Shown here one piece after another: positions 3,358 through 21,733 of a stretch of DNA of 21,733 nucleotides. Below the pieces are notes generated by a model that saw only the letters and a list, made by a program, of their open reading frames with translations, did not search any database and was not told the origin of the DNA. Source of the DNA: a virus; the IMG/VR virus record IMGVR_UViG_3300030430_004698, positions 1-21,733 of that record; one strand, written 5' to 3'. A program made the position numbers and the translations under genes. How positions within the stretch are numbered: the stretch's first letter is position 1; the number at the start of each line of letters is the position of its first letter.

Positions 3358-4212
3358 TTATTCTAATGGTTTTTCTTTACCCAACTGAGATACATCTGCT
3401 GTTGCCGAAGCTCCAATAGATGCGAGAGATGCCAGATCTCCACCAAAGATATATGAACCCATATGTTTTAGACGCATCCATGGACACATCCATACTTTAA
3501 TTCCTAGTTCGCGAGCCCATTGACAGAACATATAGTCTTCAGATAAGTAACGATTAGACTTAGGGTCAATTACTGTATCAAAGAATGCATGGATCTTACG
3601 AGTACCGTCAAAATTAGCAGTACGAATATGATCTGGTGTATAGAGTAATTCTGGATGTGCTTCACCAAACTTTTCAAAAACATGCTTCTGAATCATCATA
3701 AAACCAGTACCGGCTTCTAAGACTTCTGCAGGTTCATTGATTTTAATTTGTTCTGTACCAGGGGCAGGATTGAATACGAAATCACCAACATAGTTTTCAA
3801 GATTATTTGCATTGTCGTCAGCTACACCTTTGTCAACTGCTCGTTTAATCTTTTCCCATGAAATAGTCTTTTTTGGATATGGTGCTGCCACAATATCTTT
3901 ATCTGAATCGGGGTCTGCTAATGCAGCCAAGGCCAAGACATCAGATGCATCGAACCCAATATCGGCGTCGATAAACATCAGATGCGTATAGTGACTTCTC
4001 ATAAACTCATCAACCAAATAGTTACGTGCACGAGTAATTAAGCTCTCGTTAAAGATGTAGAAAAAACCTACATCAATACCATACTTGGCTGCTTGTTGTC
4101 CTAAGTCTACTGAAGATTTTGTATATTGTCCACCACACATTCCGCCATACATGGGTGTGGCCACCATAATTTTACGTTCTTGTAACTGTTCAACAGTGAT
4201 TTCAACTTCCAT
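3358..4212 (-). CDS. GT-A fold glycosyltransferase-like protein
   Basis: A 284-residue protein with GT-A (family 2-like) features. It opens with a strand and a short loop (IMVATPMYGG), followed by NESLITRARNYLVDEF. A DxD metal/nucleotide-sugar motif lies in MFIDADIGF (residues 82-84). There is a candidate catalytic acid in RYLSEDYMFCQWAREL (Glu225-Asp226) and a late His in KHMGSY (His250). This order (DxD, ED, late His) fits metal-dependent sugar transferases. The acceptor cannot be read: DNA base, virion protein or host surface are all possible, and similar genes occur in cyanophages without known function. The start at 4212 overlaps the upstream DUF3310-like gene by 11 nt. AAGGA is 11 nt upstream, which is long, so translational coupling is likely. 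Confidence 0.8.
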   Translation of the reverse strand: MEVEITVEQLQERKIMVATPMYGGMCGGQYTKSSVDLGQQAAKYGIDVGFFYIFNESLITRARNYLVDEFMRSHYTHLMFIDADIGFDASDVLALAALADPDSDKDIVAAPYPKKTISWEKIKRAVDKGVADDNANNLENYVGDFVFNPAPGTEQIKINEPAEVLEAGTGFMMIQKHVFEKFGEAHPELLYTPDHIRTANFDGTRKIHAFFDTVIDPKSNRYLSEDYMFCQWARELGIKVWMCPWMRLKHMGSYIFGGDLASLASIGASATADVSQLGKEKPLE

Positions 4213-4495
4213 TATTTAATTCATCCTTCTCAGTGTCATGTAAATATAAAGCCATAATAGTATAGTGTAAGACTTTCATCAAGTCTTTTCTGTTGTAACC
4301 TTCCTTTCTTCCATATCGTTGCGCATACTTCAGAACATTTCCAAGACAGAAACCAAGTCCTTGAACATGACCCATATCAAAGATAAACTCTGTTGCTTGA
4401 AACTTAGACTGTGAGTAATGAGCATTGTATGTAGTATCTATATAGGTCTTCAGTTCATCTAAAAGCCTATCTTCATCAAATTTATATTCAATCAT
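4202..4495 (-). CDS. DUF3310-like small phage protein
   Basis: A 97-residue protein whose core GLGFCLGNVLKYAQRYGRKEG followed by DLMKVLHYTIMALYL matches the hallmark pattern of the DUF3310 family (GFCLGNAIKY, R.G.K, DL.KA..Y). These proteins are widespread in phages and sometimes labelled nucleotide-kinase-like, but no enzymatic activity is established to my knowledge. No Walker motif is present here. The N-terminal half (FDEDRLLDELKTYIDTTYNAHYS) is helical. The ATG at 4495 has GAGG upstream and lies 7 nt after the CmoA-like gene stop. It sits between nucleic-acid-modifying enzymes and the glycosyltransferase, which is compatible with a nucleotide-metabolism role but does not prove it. Confidence 0.72.
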   Translation of the reverse strand: MIEYKFDEDRLLDELKTYIDTTYNAHYSQSKFQATEFIFDMGHVQGLGFCLGNVLKYAQRYGRKEGYNRKDLMKVLHYTIMALYLHDTEKDELNNGS

Positions 4496-4502
4496 TTCAT
4501 CC

Positions 4503-5198
4503 TCACTTAATTGCTATAAATCCAACAAAATTATGATTACGCCAGAATTGTTGTAAGACAGGAAATCCTGCACTGTAAATCATATCCTCAATCTCACCTA
4601 CCGTATTTGGTTTCATCATATTACGTAATGTTTTCTCTTTTGTCAAGATATCTTCTGCAGTAAAACTCTTTTGTTTGAAATCATAGTAGTTAAAGGTAAT
4701 CATCTCTTGAATTTGTGGGTTATCAGAGATAGTCTTTTCAGAGAAGATAAATGCTCCACCTGTATTTAATCCCTCATAGATGGAACGGATAACCTCTGCA
4801 CGATCTTTCTTAGACATGAACTGTAAAGTAAAGATAGAAGTTACCAAACTACAATTATAGAAACCACTGAACCGTACATCTTCTTCAGTATCAAATACGA
4901 TCTTTGTACATGGATATTTTGTTTGCAAACTAATTTGTCGTTCTTGTAAATCTTTAGTAAATCCTGTAGCAATCTCAATACCACGATATGTAGCCTCGCG
5001 AGCAAAGTCATTCTGTTCAATCATCATCTCAGTGACCTTACCAGTAGAACAACCAATATCTACCACATTTGTATCATTTTCAACAAAGTATCTAGACATT
5101 GAAATGATGTCCTCAAGTAAGGTACTATACCCACGAATAGAACTATCGATATGATTATCGAAGCCTTCGTCACGATGTGCAAATGTAAAATCAGCCAT
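4503..5198 (-). CDS. CmoA-like SAM-dependent methyltransferase-fold enzyme
   Basis: A class I Rossmann SAM-binding protein of 231 residues that resembles bacterial CmoA along its whole length. CmoA makes carboxy-S-adenosylmethionine from SAM and prephenate for tRNA U34 modification. Matching elements are FDNHIDSSIRGYSTLL (CmoA has R.VPGYSNII), motif I VVDIGCSTG at 45-53, FTLQFM at 123-128, IYEGLNTGGAFIFSEK, YDFKQKSF at 172-179 and the C-terminal FWRNHNFVGFIAIK. By my remembered alignment, E. coli Arg199, which binds the carboxylate of carboxy-SAM, corresponds to Glu188 here (TKEKTLRNMM). It may therefore be an ordinary methyltransferase rather than a Cx-SAM synthase. No cmoB is in the window. 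The start has AAGGA with an 8-nt spacer and overlaps the cytosine methylase stop by 8 nt. The superfamily is certain, the CmoA subfamily likely, the substrate unknown. Confidence 0.85.
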   Translation of the reverse strand: MADFTFAHRDEGFDNHIDSSIRGYSTLLEDIISMSRYFVENDTNVVDIGCSTGKVTEMMIEQNDFAREATYRGIEIATGFTKDLQERQISLQTKYPCTKIVFDTEEDVRFSGFYNCSLVTSIFTLQFMSKKDRAEVIRSIYEGLNTGGAFIFSEKTISDNPQIQEMITFNYYDFKQKSFTAEDILTKEKTLRNMMKPNTVGEIEDMIYSAGFPVLQQFWRNHNFVGFIAIK

Positions 5199-6588
5199 TT
5201 TGTAATTCCTTATAAGGTTTCAATATTTTTTCATATACAGACTCAGCAATAGCTTGTGTCATTCTAGGAGGCACCATCCGGCCAATACGTTCAGCCTTCT
5301 GTTTCCATTTACCAGTTAGTACAAAGTCATCTGGTAATGACATAGCTCGTTTTAACTCTCCTAGTGTTAATTTTCTCATTTCACTCCAATGATACAGACC
5401 ACCAGTAGCCGTGATGGTAGGACAGGGTTGATGGCGTGACACACGCTTCATGTTGAAATGATGACCTTTATCATGAAAATCACAACCTGTCAAGACTTTA
5501 TCTGGGTCAATACCCTTAATTGGTTGAATTTTATTGTAGTTCTTTTCATATGTACCAGAACCTTTAGAGTCTCGACAGTGTAATAACATCATTTCTTTTA
5601 TTTTTGGATCATCTTTGTTTGAAGGTAAAACCTTAAACCAAGGTTTCATAACAACTTCCACATTACCTTTTTTATCTAAACGTTCAACTAGACCTTTTTC
5701 TGCTTTATGAGTTTCAAGATGTTTGAATGGAATTTTATATCTCTTCTCTCCTTTATTCATTTCTAGTAGAGTAAGATAATGAGAACCTTTTTTAGTTTCT
5801 TCAAATAAATCTGATAACTCCGATTGGTCATACTCTAGATTTTCAAATGCATCACCAAGATTATATCTAACAAAAGACTCATTCGGAAAACGATCTTTTA
5901 GAGCTGAAACATGTGTAAGTTTAATTTTATTCATTACATCATTACGTACACCAATAAAAATAATTCTCTTACGAGTTTGTGGAACACCATAATTAGAAGA
6001 GTCTAAGACCTTATAAGTCGTACTATATCCTATTTCTTCAAATGTTTCTAAGATTTTAGTTTTGTAGTTCTTAGCCTCACCCATATCTAAACCAGCAACA
6101 TTTTCAGCTATGATAACTTTAGGACGAATTTCATTCGCCACACGTAAGAACTCAAAAAACAAATCTTCAATGTTTTCAACTTTTTTACCATCTGAATATT
6201 TCTTAGTTTGACCCCAGCCATCAGAGTGTTTACCACCACCACGAGATACAGACCCAGCCATAGAAAATGCTGAACATGGTGGTGAACCATCTAAGATATC
6301 AAGTTCTCCCGGTTCTAAACCAATTTTGTCTAAAAAATCTTTACCGGTTAATTCTTTAATATCTCCAGGCATAATAGGTGTTTCTGGATAATTTTTATGG
6401 TAAGTTTTTTGTGCCTCTTCTACAAATTCATTCATAGCCAAGACATTACCACCGGCCAGTTTATAACCAGTACTTGACCCACCACCACCTGCAAATGTAC
6501 TAACAACCGTAAATTTATTAAGAGAAGAATTCTTGTAAACTTCCTCCATTAGATAAGGTTTGTATTTTTGACCAATCTCTATAGACAT
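5191..6588 (-). CDS. C5-cytosine DNA methyltransferase
   Basis: A 465-residue DNA (cytosine-5) methyltransferase with the motifs in canonical order: motif I FAGGGG (32-37), motif IV GSPPCSAFS with catalytic Cys105, motif VI AENV (161-164), motif VIII QTRKR (204-208), motif IX PCPTITATGG (388-397) and motif X GRMVPPRMTQAIAESV (436-451). The region of about 175 residues between VIII and IX is the target-recognition domain. The recognition sequence cannot be read from it. No cognate restriction endonuclease is adjacent, so it is an orphan methylase, probably protecting phage DNA or feeding further base modification. The ATG at 6588 has AAGGA 6 nt upstream, within the end of the AsnB-like gene (71-nt overlap). 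All key residues are intact, so it should be active. Confidence 0.96.
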   Translation of the reverse strand: MSIEIGQKYKPYLMEEVYKNSSLNKFTVVSTFAGGGGSSTGYKLAGGNVLAMNEFVEEAQKTYHKNYPETPIMPGDIKELTGKDFLDKIGLEPGELDILDGSPPCSAFSMAGSVSRGGGKHSDGWGQTKKYSDGKKVENIEDLFFEFLRVANEIRPKVIIAENVAGLDMGEAKNYKTKILETFEEIGYSTTYKVLDSSNYGVPQTRKRIIFIGVRNDVMNKIKLTHVSALKDRFPNESFVRYNLGDAFENLEYDQSELSDLFEETKKGSHYLTLLEMNKGEKRYKIPFKHLETHKAEKGLVERLDKKGNVEVVMKPWFKVLPSNKDDPKIKEMMLLHCRDSKGSGTYEKNYNKIQPIKGIDPDKVLTGCDFHDKGHHFNMKRVSRHQPCPTITATGGLYHWSEMRKLTLGELKRAMSLPDDFVLTGKWKQKAERIGRMVPPRMTQAIAESVYEKILKPYKELQNG

Positions 6589-14955: not shown

Positions 14956-14963
14956 TATTTATA
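14956..14963 (-). promoter_or_regulatory. T4-type late promoter before tail protein gene
   Basis: Exact TATAAATA on the minus strand, 20 nt upstream of the tail protein ATG. It abuts the U-run of the gp23 terminator, sharing its last bases. Confidence 0.85.
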
Positions 14964-19560: not shown

Positions 19561-20154
19561 TTATATGAAAAATGGTAATTTATAATCTACACCACTAATA
19601 TGTACTACTAAATGACCATCTGGATTGGCCACAATTGGGTCATTGACACCTAAAGAACTAAATGTATTTGAAACTGCAGATATATTTGTTGTATTAGCTG
19701 TTATATCTCCACTAGACACACCAGGAGATGTATTTGCAACCGCTGCCATATAAGGAATTTTATAGTCAACACCATTAATATTGAAAACTAGATGTCCTAA
19801 TGGGTTTGCAACGATTGCATCACTAGTATCCAAATCGCCGAAGTTTTCAACAATACCTGCGGAAGCTGTGTTACCACTGTTAACTGTAACTGTATGACTT
19901 GAACTAAAACTCAAGTTTCCATTACCGTCAGTTTTCAAAACCTGACCGGCTTGACCGTCTGAAATAGGAAACGAGTATGCACTGTTCACAGAGAGAGTAG
20001 CTGGATTAGAACCTATCTCTAAAACAGTTGTATTATTCTTTGTATATAATCTCTTATCAGCAACATTTAAGGCTAATTCACCGAAATCAAGGTCTGAAGT
20101 AGAAGGCTTCTTGCCAGATATACTGGACCTTTTAACTTTAATAACAGTAGCCAT
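19561..20154 (-). CDS. Fibre-like virion protein with MTD-type N-terminus
   Basis: A 197-residue structural protein. Residues 1-40 (IKVKRSSISGKKPSTSDLDFGELALNVADKRLYTKN) resemble the N-terminal domain of major-tropism-determinant-type and other phage tail-fibre proteins, which fix the fibre to the virion. GQAGQVLKTDGNGNLSFSS (68-86) is the usual fibre linker motif. The C-terminal half holds two copies of a 25-residue unit at 112-136 and 171-195 (IVANP.GHLV...I.GVDYK.P), suggesting two repeated beta modules in a trimeric fibre. AGGAG lies 8 nt upstream of the ATG. A sigma70-type promoter and a terminator-like hairpin lie between it and the glycine-rich gene. The host target cannot be inferred. 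Confidence 0.82.
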   Translation of the reverse strand: MATVIKVKRSSISGKKPSTSDLDFGELALNVADKRLYTKNNTTVLEIGSNPATLSVNSAYSFPISDGQAGQVLKTDGNGNLSFSSSHTVTVNSGNTASAGIVENFGDLDTSDAIVANPLGHLVFNINGVDYKIPYMAAVANTSPGVSSGDITANTTNISAVSNTFSSLGVNDPIVANPDGHLVVHISGVDYKLPFFI

Positions 20155-20181
20155 AATAATAACTCCTATCTAGGATATTAA

Positions 20182-20210
20182 AAAGATAGATATCAAAACC
20201 CTCTATCTTT
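20182..20210 (-). terminator. Terminator-like hairpin in the leader of the fibre-like gene
   Basis: On the minus strand AAAGATAGA (20210-20202) pairs perfectly with TCTATCTTT (20190-20182) around an 11-nt loop and runs into U residues. The stem is A/U-rich and hence weak. It lies downstream of the promoter at 20248-20276 and 27 nt before the ATG, the position of an attenuator. Its function is untested. Confidence 0.45.
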
Positions 20211-20220
20211 CATATTAAAT

Positions 20221-20263
20221 TGTCTATATAGACATCTTTACAGTATAATTATACTAGGCTAGT
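20221..20263. repeat. Three successive palindromes in the 20155-20348 gap
   Basis: TGTCTATATAGACA (20221-20234), AGTATAATTATACT (20242-20255) and ACTAGGCTAGT (20253-20263, odd centre) are perfect dyads placed almost end to end. The middle one contains the -10 element of the promoter on the minus strand, so a dimeric regulator bound there would block transcription. They could also reflect A/T-rich chance. Confidence 0.5.
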
Positions 20264-20276
20264 TATATTTAGTCAA
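20248..20276 (-). promoter_or_regulatory. Sigma70-type promoter upstream of fibre-like gene
   Basis: On the minus strand TTGACT (20276-20271), a 17-bp spacer and a perfect TATAAT (20253-20248). It starts only 4 nt after the terminator of the glycine-rich gene. Transcription would begin near 20241, leaving a leader of about 87 nt with a terminator-like hairpin. No TATAAATA box is present. Confidence 0.7.
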
Positions 20277-20280
20277 AATG

Positions 20281-20308
20281 AAAAAGTAGGGGTTTTATCC
20301 CCTACTTT
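20281..20308 (-). terminator. Rho-independent terminator after glycine-rich gene
   Basis: On the minus strand AAAGTAGGGG (20308-20299) pairs perfectly with CCCCTACTTT (20292-20283) across a 6-nt loop, and the descending arm continues into a five-U tract. It lies 40 nt after the stop at 20349. Confidence 0.9.
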
Positions 20309-20348
20309 CTCTGTTTTTATCTTTAAAAATTGATTTTTATGTATTAGT

Positions 20349-21733
20349 TTATGGGATTGTGATCGATCCAGGTGCATCAAATTCTGTTGCTGAACCATCA
20401 ACTGTAACAACCACATAACCTGGACCACCGGGTGCATGTTTTGGACCTGGGCTGTGTCCACCCGCCCCAATCGTACCTGGAGCATTTCCAGGAAGAGGTG
20501 CATGGGCACCACCACCACGCCGTGCTGGATTGCCGTTCGTGCCAGGCAATCCTCCTAAGAGGTTACCAGTACCCGCCACGAATGCGATATCACCAGGTAG
20601 ACCAGTTGTTGCGAAATATCCGGATCCGCCACCACCAGAGGACGAGCGATTTGGTGGAGCCTGTCCACCAGCCCCGCCGCCATAGTAACCAGCACCACCG
20701 CCGCCTCGGGCCACCGGACCAGGCATATTACCGCCTAACAGTTTTCCACCATCATTACTTCTACCAGTAGGTGTTGATGGCACGCCAAATGGGAAGTTCT
20801 CACCACCAAGACCACCTCCAGTTTGCGTACCACCAGTACCAGCAGCACCAGCACTAAGACCACTTGGATGGTTACTTCTTGGTGTTTCTTGCTGTGGTGA
20901 GCCATCACCACCTGTTGTTCCACCACCTTGTCCACCATATTTGTTAGGTGAATTATGATTGGTTGAACCGCCGCCACCAGAGCCAGCGACAACTAGAGCC
21001 GCATCATGTAGTGCATCTACCGTTGGAGCTGATGCTGGGTTAAATCCAGCAGCTGGTGCAGTAAATACTCCGACCAAGGCACCGCCTTGACCAGAACCAC
21101 CACCACCACCAATTGGGTTTTCACCAAGACTACTTGGTGCTCTGGCACCACCACGACCGCCGCCGCCAACAAGAACAGTTAATTCTACACCTGATTGAAT
21201 TTCATACTCTGCAGTGGCATATCCACCGCCACCACCAGCACCAGGTGCGCGACCACCACCACCAGCACCCCAAGCTTGGATGACAACTGGTGTACCAGAC
21301 CCAGAACCAGCAGCAGCAATTGCTGCAGTGTTAGCAGCAGCAGGAATACCTTTTAGAGTAATCCGGCGTCTTTGCTCTTTCATTGCTGCAGATCCACCAT
21401 GCATGTTAACTGGTGTTGAATATGGAGAAGCTCCATATCTTGCATTACCTTTGGTCACACGGACTTCATCCATCCAACCTTGCCATTCTGTATTAGCAGC
21501 AGTACCTGAGCCAATCTTTAACTTATTACCTGTTGGGGCACCAGAACCACCTGCTGTTGCTTGTTTATAAACCAAAACAATTCCATCAATACCTGCAGCA
21601 CCACCACGGGGTCCACTTTCACCACCGCCTCCGGCACCACCACCGAATCCAGCACCACCATCAGCACCATCTGGAGCTGCGGCGTCACCACTGGAAAGAG
21701 GCGGATTAGTGACACCTGGTGCAGTAACTAGGA
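20349..21733 (-). CDS. Glycine-rich adhesin/tail-fibre protein, 5' end outside window
   Basis: The frame is open to the right edge, so the gene is partial; at least 460 residues are present. A glycine-rich stretch ends in AAGIDGIVLVYKQ (a usual end of such domains). Then comes a short segment WQGWMDEVRVTKGNARYG, the conserved last part of a LamG/concanavalin-like domain. A second glycine-rich domain follows, from VVIQAWGAGGGG through VELTVLVGGGG and many G-rich runs to the terminal GGPGYVVVTVDG. Phage adhesins with such domains (for example S16-type gp38) pack polyglycine helices and recognise the host surface through variable loops; that role is inferred here. The gene is visibly more GC-rich than its surroundings because of Gly, Ala and Pro codons. 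It ends 40 nt before a strong terminator. Confidence 0.85.
   Translation of the reverse strand, partial: LVTAPGVTNPPLSSGDAAAPDGADGGAGFGGGAGGGGESGPRGGAAGIDGIVLVYKQATAGGSGAPTGNKLKIGSGTAANTEWQGWMDEVRVTKGNARYGASPYSTPVNMHGGSAAMKEQRRRITLKGIPAAANTAAIAAAGSGSGTPVVIQAWGAGGGGRAPGAGGGGGYATAEYEIQSGVELTVLVGGGGRGGARAPSSLGENPIGGGGGSGQGGALVGVFTAPAAGFNPASAPTVDALHDAALVVAGSGGGGSTNHNSPNKYGGQGGGTTGGDGSPQQETPRSNHPSGLSAGAAGTGGTQTGGGLGGENFPFGVPSTPTGRSNDGGKLLGGNMPGPVARGGGGAGYYGGGAGGQAPPNRSSSGGGGSGYFATTGLPGDIAFVAGTGNLLGGLPGTNGNPARRGGGAHAPLPGNAPGTIGAGGHSPGPKHAPGGPGYVVVTVDGSATEFDAPGSITIP

Follow-up and report, generated by a model that had tools for sequence, protein, structure and literature searches.

The 194 nt that separate a gene for a Gly-rich protein from a tail-fibre gene raise the question of how the expression of this fibre is controlled. 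The window, that is, the whole stretch of 21,733 nt that was analysed, is a fragment of a T4-like phage whose main genes all lie on the minus strand according to the list of open reading frames (ORFs). PHROGs recognise the late sigma factor gp55, the tail tube, the major head protein, the scaffold and the protease; between the replication genes (3358–6588, minus strand) there are ORFs that we take to resemble a glycosyltransferase, a methyltransferase and a cytosine DNA methyltransferase. Upstream of the gap, the Gly-rich protein gene (20349–21731, minus strand, from the ORF list, 5'-open at the window end) has a product that belongs to PHROG 1589, for which no function is given (E 1.4e-9). 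Downstream, the gene at 19561–20154 (minus strand) encodes a protein of 197 aa with the N-terminus MATVIKVKRSSISGKKPST that matches PHROG tail-fibre families (best E 2.5e-10). The initial annotation had proposed that the fibre is expressed conditionally, by a DNA operator at a sigma-70 promoter and by attenuation in the leader.

The architecture on which this proposal was based is present on the minus strand: a terminator, a TTGACT-17-TATAAT site, a palindrome around the −10 box, a second palindrome and a hairpin with a U-run. The terminator-like hairpin of the upstream gene (20311–20280, minus strand, 13 pairs) is also terminator-like on the plus strand, and such sites number 14 in a scanned 9.7-kb stretch, compared to 5.4 ± 2.5 in shuffles. 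The promoter-like site, predicted from the sequence (minus strand, TTGACT at 20276–20271, 17 nt, TATAAT at 20253–20248), adjoins the terminator as claimed, starting 3 nt after the stem and not 4. It has both hexamers of a sigma-70 promoter at a spacing within 16–18 nt, as a sequence match only, and with 11 of 12 positions it is the top promoter-like site of the scanned stretch, where the count of such sites is at chance level (35 vs 31.0 ± 5.3). The palindrome around the −10 box, AGTATAATTATACT (20255–20242, minus strand), is perfect over 14 nt, as is hairpin H1 (20234–20221, minus strand, palindrome TGTCTATATAGACA), which reads UGUC[UAUAUA]GACA with the loop in brackets; these are two of the eight perfect palindromes with arms of at least 6 nt in the whole window. 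Hairpin H2 (20210–20182, minus strand) is a weak inverted repeat, AAAGATAGA/TCTATCTTT (AAAGAUAGA-11 nt-UCUAUCUUU), with an 11-nt loop and just two G-C pairs in its stem, followed by the U-run. Lastly, hairpin H3 (20175–20164, minus strand, small palindrome TCCTAGATAGGA), UCC[UAGAUA]GGA, lies over the Shine-Dalgarno sequence, so that most of AGGAG (20167–20163) sits in its 3' arm.

In the minimum-energy fold of the leader, H1, which folds locally, and H2 are present and H3 is not. The stability of this fold is ordinary (z −1.28) and H3 alone is weak (centroid −2.8 kcal/mol for 20183–20150, z −0.30); the folding energies of the window thus give little support for H3. The leader of one relative (L003) is more stable than its own shuffles (z −3.14).

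To compare the gap with related leaders, we used a protein search of viral contigs that resulted in 80 loci, among them ten near-full-length relatives of the fibre with 65–95% identity (L002–L011). The palindromes are conserved in their leaders, which run from a late box TATAAATA through a palindrome GTCTATATAGAC (replaced by GTCTACATAGAC in L011) and a middle hairpin to TCCTA(C/G)ATAGGAG over the Shine-Dalgarno sequence; the leader of L009 is short. In the window, the minus strand carries TATAAATA at 14963, 16432, 17572 and 19546, each time immediately 5' of a virion gene, and once more within a gene (12741). At the junction of gp23 and the tail-tube gene (14992–14956, minus strand), a strong terminator runs straight into TATAAATA, so that a terminator is fused to a late promoter. 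Our scan of the minus strand found no TATAAATA, and thus no T4-like late promoter, in the fibre gap, as the initial annotation had noted. It had taken this absence as a sign of special timing, which the comparison does not support: where the window has TATAATTA (20253–20246, minus strand), eight relatives (L003–L008, L010 and L011) carry TATAAATA, the leader of L009 being too short to judge. As the relatives carry the late box at this place, TATAATTA would most simply be a late box that has diverged, or else a −10 box of the sigma-70 type that has taken its stead. In T4 late promoters, transcription begins shortly downstream of the box. With this geometry the transcript of the window would start at about 20240, and with the sigma-70 reading at about 20241; in both cases H1 would be near the 5' end.

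The nearest relative, L002, departs from this order and shares the terminator, TTGACT and TATAATTATA with the window; the terminator stem is absent in L003–L008, L010 and L011. Between the two genomes, the −10 palindrome differs by a symmetric double change (AGTATAATTATACT vs GGTATAATTATACC, AGT/ACT to GGT/ACC), and H1 likewise changes symmetrically from UGUC/GACA to UGCC[UAUAUA]GGCA, which preserves the stem. In H3 only the middle of the loop has changed (UAGAUA to UACAUA), which is uninformative for the stem. TATAATTATA also follows the late box in the distant phage L082, and the symmetry of the −10 palindrome is retained in L002.

The comparison bears directly on the mechanism that was first proposed, in which expression from a sigma-70 promoter is subject to an operator in the DNA, placed at the −10 palindrome, and to attenuation at H2. 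It is in line with this mechanism that TTGACT-17-TATAAT, the top site of the stretch, is identical in L002, that the −10 palindrome has kept its symmetry and that a U-run follows H2. The identity of the promoter is weak evidence, since both leaders are alike throughout, and the arrangement is common to just these two genomes, the other relatives having a late box at the same place. A middle hairpin is kept in the relatives with other stems (e.g. GCAGGGG-GUUGA-CCCCUGC) and without a U-run, which is confined to the window and L002, and the two G-C pairs of H2 also speak against attenuation. We thus rejected a transcription attenuator, as a leader terminator hairpin with a U-run is not conserved. 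Together with the strand specificity described below, which holds for the H1 hairpin family, this makes the first mechanism quite improbable.

If not an attenuator, the conserved hairpins could be a recurrent element of another kind. A scan of viral contigs for TATAAATA with GTCTATATAGAC after it resulted in 20 matches, four of them at unrelated places; in the distant phages L082 and L093, the element was again found before a fibre-type gene, whose product starts with MAN(T/S)(I/V)K(V/L)KRS. When GTCTATATAGAC was required to lie at most 34 nt from ATGGC, 49 of 101 loci were at such fibre genes. The palindrome GACTATATAGTC, chosen as a negative control, failed as such: eight of its 53 loci were upstream of the same kind of fibre gene, and it proved to be a symmetric stem variant. 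This suggests that the stem may vary so long as pairing persists. Subsequent loci were thus collected by protein only and not by leader sequence. Most of their leaders contain a hairpin upstream of the ATG with the loop U-[A/U]-N-A-U-A and highly diverse stems, for instance GGC[UAGAUA]GCC, GCC[UACAUA]GGC, GUC[UUUAUA]GAC, UGCG[UAUAUA]CGCA and GG[UAUAUA]CC. We defined the hairpin by this hexaloop, UWNAUA, which is a WNAU tetraloop closed by a U-A pair, with at least three stem pairs including a G-C pair, within 70–100 nt of the fibre start. With this definition, H1 and H3 are both members, which gives the window two copies. We drew up the loop pattern when the first protein-chosen leaders had already been seen, a choice that favours our reading; named phages seen later, a paralogue query and bacterial contigs serve as tests of it.

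We surveyed 175 fibre starts from the protein-search loci, the named phages and the window, which were reduced to 105 leaders differing by more than 20% (a single cut-off). A hairpin within 70 nt was found in 76 of the 105 leaders, compared to 1.15 ± 0.95 (maximum 4) in 100 dinucleotide shuffles, and the fibre genes preceded by it start with MAxxIKxKRSxVxGKxPT. Other gene starts rarely have it: 5 of 278 after dereplication, taken from the 80-locus protein search, the window and 50 kb of P-SSM2, and including a weak hairpin before the tail protein gene PSSM2_034 that is detected under a looser rule. Positions 1–50000 of P-SSM2, which include several other tail-fibre genes, contain two matches with at least four pairs, both antisense to genes. 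By the rule used, the hairpin is missing in 29 of the 105 leaders, among them those of P-HM2, KP15 and Vibrio phage 1.208.B. The hairpin can also be present in tandem, as in 23 of the 105 leaders. In Synechococcus phage DSL-LC03 (L392:540–603), the predicted fold joins the two UAUAUA hairpins into a single long one (z −5.11), so that copies in tandem may be bistable.

Known Rfam families have no match at gathering score in the window, and between 20100 and 20420 there were two sub-threshold matches alone, with E of about 0.8; 20 leaders with the element gave no match at E ≤ 1. The open-licence literature that we searched yielded no description of such a fibre leader. Judged by these searches, the UWNAUA hairpin is new as an RNA element, while its kind, the cis-acting leader, is known.

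Does the element act as RNA or as a palindrome in the DNA? A loop match in a fibre leader is flanked by at least three Watson–Crick pairs in 84 of 157 cases, and elsewhere in 105 of 4103. The decisive cases are asymmetric loops, which have a stem of at least three pairs in 44 of 91 sense matches vs 0 of 23 antisense matches. Since these stems are found only in sense, the sequences argue that the family acts as RNA and is not a DNA operator. This also applies to the TATATA palindrome (H1) that had been proposed as an operator. The strand specificity likewise led us to reject the reading of the UWNAUA hairpins as recombination palindromes.

Covariation was analysed in an alignment of 79 candidates preselected for the loop and at least two pairs, from which three that we judged to be chance matches were dropped (L386, L389 and L039). 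Over the remaining 76 hairpins, the covariation score is 0.891, compared to 0.188 when shuffled and at most 0.206 for slid structures, and 145 cells contain double changes vs 52 ± 5.5. As the candidates were preselected, the counts are partly built in for both loop-proximal pairs; the outer three pairs are free of this. Fibre genes are frequently exchanged and polymerases can template the symmetry of a palindrome; as upstream neighbour genes also vary between the relatives, one might think of a DNA palindrome for recombination or switching of fibre cassettes. However, paired asymmetric loops are always in sense orientation and, as described next, pairing of the AUG and the Shine-Dalgarno sequence points to translation, which leaves this explanation with hardly any plausibility.

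In many relatives, the hairpins reach the signals of translation initiation. A second alignment listed 40 leaders, of which five with a different architecture were dropped (L338, L357, L362, L382 and L384). In the remaining 35, an outer stem pairs the Shine-Dalgarno sequence (AGGA, GGG) with an upstream UCC(U) or CCC. In this stem, 86% of cells are paired; both helices together have 45 cells with double changes vs 15.2, and RNAalifold without an input structure results in nearly identical two stems. Furthermore, the start codon itself can be part of a hairpin with a WNAU loop, GCC-WN-AUG-GC, which was found in 45 of 153 dereplicated leaders vs 1 of 278 control genes. Another 19 leaders have the AUG in a second register, CCA-UWNAUA-UGG. 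Counting both registers, the AUG lies in a hairpin of this loop type in 58 of 88 leaders with an upstream hairpin vs 6 of 65 without. The upstream hairpin is thus present in 88 of these 153 leaders, a lower share due to the loci from later queries and bacterial contigs. Leaders of genes with Pro as the second codon (AUGCC) have GGC and not GCC before the loop (two of two dereplicated leaders), which preserves the start-codon hairpin. GGC upstream of the ATG together with a Pro codon 2 is seen in L329, L330, L343, L360, L379 and L383.

A covariance model built from the 35 viral leaders of the outer-stem subclass was searched against 49 chosen sources and found two leaders outside its training set (L482, E 2.9e-8; L428, E 4.7e-7). 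Of eleven whole records, three had a single strong site (E below 1e-5), and training leaders are present in two of the three. Nothing was found in P-SSM2 and S-B05, where the leaders are of the tandem kind. In the window, it has no full-length match and a partial weak match to H1 alone (12.8 bits, E 0.5). The start region of the window, TTATTATTATGGC, has neither the outer stem on the Shine-Dalgarno sequence nor the start-codon hairpin. The window is thus an atypical member of the family.

A variable stem, a fixed loop, tandem copies and the pairing of Shine-Dalgarno sequence and AUG are as expected of a translational operator that is recognised through its loop, and from them we infer an effect on translation and a protein that binds the loop. 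Judging by these sequence features, the element is most likely a translational operator, and it probably sets the amount of fibre that is translated. We consider it reasonably likely that the gap is the 5' leader of a tail-fibre gene of a T4-like marine phage, with a recurrent RNA element that acts on translation. The leader would probably be expressed late and would carry one or two short UWNAUA hairpins, the last of them at or just 5' of the ribosome binding site. The hairpins would keep the initiation region closed, in many relatives together with the outer stem or the start-codon hairpin, and a factor reading the conserved loop would set how often it opens. In the window, H1 at the 5' end and H3 over the Shine-Dalgarno sequence would act, and H2 would be a spacer or a stabilising hairpin. 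Control of the fibre through its leader is thus an idea that comes out strengthened, by a mechanism other than the operator-plus-attenuator first proposed. That reading is right only in part: the gap is a regulatory leader of a fibre gene with palindromes that relatives conserve, but attenuation and a DNA operator are not supported.

The first hairpin might also serve a simpler purpose and shield the late mRNA from 5'-dependent decay, with no trans-acting factor involved. A late box NATAAATA is found 5' of the first hairpin in 17 of the 105 dereplicated leaders, at a distance of 2–20 nt in 16 of the 17; if the T4 late geometry applies, the first hairpin would be near the 5' end of the mRNA, where such protection would need it. 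However, a stability hairpin does not require a conserved loop, and the gene-proximal hairpins pair the Shine-Dalgarno sequence or the AUG. Within the 100 nt examined, 60 of 77 hairpin-bearing leaders have no late box, and the gp23 and gp22 leaders in the window have no such hairpin. We thus regard protection of the 5' end as unlikely.

If the element is a translational operator, the factor that recognises it is perhaps the fibre itself. As a special case of our preferred explanation, the N-terminal domain of the fibre or its trimer would bind the WNAU hairpins and repress its own translation, so that output matches assembly. The distribution of the element provides the evidence for this. The fibre of the window fits the subtype KR[ST].[VI].GK.P, and the element tracks this subtype in records with and without a detected gp23. 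In a paralogue query that played no part in defining the loop pattern, 39 dereplicated leaders had the hairpin in 4 of 5 KRS.V, 1 of 18 KRS.T and 2 of 16 other genes, the last two reading KRTSV and KRSSI. Within multi-member loci of the 80-locus search, it precedes 9 of 10 V/I-type genes vs 2 of 17 T-type genes, so that T-subtype paralogues of the same locus mostly lack it; the two exceptions (L007 and L008) have similar sequences. In the first set, V at the subtype column is found in 73 of 79 genes with the hairpin vs 10 of 26 without; in all of these subtype counts, kinship is ignored. Several T-subtype paralogues without the hairpin have TCCTATAGGA over the Shine-Dalgarno sequence and others a UUCG-loop hairpin (L007, L087–L089 and L401–L422). 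The same N-terminal domain also stands at the start of a gene of Prochlorococcus phage P-HM2 (L386) that carries the annotation baseplate wedge gp7; this gene lacks the hairpin and overlaps its upstream neighbour.

The element also recurs across diverse phages. Among named phages it was found at 6 of 14 fibre starts (P-SSM2, S-B05, DSL-LC02, DSL-LC03, S-CBS2 gp052 and, in a weaker form, Sf-CH8) and was absent from the other eight (P-HM2, KP15, Vibrio 1.208.B, S-T4, ACG-2014f, S-CBS2 gp032, S-CRES3 and Limnohabitans DC31). We detected gp23 in 9 of 20 hairpin-bearing viral records, which shows variety only in part, as several of the remaining records are short fragments; a T7-like RNA polymerase was found in none of the 20, which is uninformative as the search had no positive control. 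Among 12 loci on contigs from bacterial genomes, the element was present in 6, including contigs filed under Synechococcus lacustris, a Myxococcales MAG, Shimia haliotis and Roseobacter MED193; host names of MAGs in this set may be binning errors. This spread across contigs filed under Synechococcus, Roseobacter and Shimia is in agreement with autogenous control, as is the basic N-terminus of the fibre.

Shared descent of leader and gene would yield the same association, and may partly explain it. An AlphaFold2 model of the fibre has a confident fold for about residues 1–50 only, and a fold search with it gave no match at E ≤ 0.001. The best sub-threshold matches are small collagen trimerisation domains and not RNA-binding proteins, so that the model hints at trimerisation of the N-terminal domain; Pfam gave a weak Mtd_N match (2 of 33, best E 0.0086) plus chance-like matches. 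The fibre as its own repressor would thus be the boldest reading, drawn solely from co-occurrence, and we put it forward tentatively.

A conserved leader dedicated to receptor-binding fibres, present in cyanophages of the sea and of fresh water as well as in contigs filed under alphaproteobacteria, would offer a general approach to how fibre dosage is set. As the element and the N-terminal subtype co-occur, they allow fibre cassettes to be recognised by sequence and feedback by a virion protein to be tested directly in DNA phages. It is conceivable, if speculative, that the hairpins form a widespread uncatalogued fibre operator, in which WNAU hairpins sit at the start of the mRNA, on the Shine-Dalgarno sequence and on the AUG and are read by the N-terminal module of the fibre; receptor-binding protein and operator would then move between phages as a self-regulating cassette.

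Among phage genes, those for replication (T4 gp32 and gp43) and the metabolic genes of cyanophages are known to have structured leaders. In the coat-protein operator of MS2-type phages, a virion protein controls translation through a short stem that lies close to a start codon and has a conserved tetraloop. The fibre leaders share the short stem, the conserved tetraloop and its position; the MS2-type operator differs in belonging to RNA phages, in its loop consensus and in lying at the start codon of another gene. With T4-like late promoters, for which the motif (N/T)ATAAATA is given (PMC2984593), the fibre leaders share the motif, which precedes the first hairpin in 17 of the dereplicated set. 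That motif is a DNA signal, whereas the hairpins also occur in leaders without a late box. T4-like cyanophages have structured RNA leaders, namely wcaG, manA, PhotoRC-II and glnA, according to three studies (PMC2864571, PMC9964418, PMC10665884). These resemble the fibre element in being structured leaders in the same kind of phage; they differ in belonging to metabolic and photosynthesis genes and in their folds, consistent with the Rfam result for the 20 fibre leaders. The operator of gene 43 (DNA polymerase) in T4 and RB69 is an RNA hairpin whose loop is conserved; it lies about 40 bases 5' of the start codon, and its sequence extends to the ribosome binding site (PMC3014915). It has a UAAC loop and a single hairpin, whereas the fibre leaders have UWNAUA loops, sometimes in tandem, precede a different gene and have a putative binding protein; the likeness is that in both an RNA hairpin with a conserved loop is joined to a reach to the ribosome binding site.
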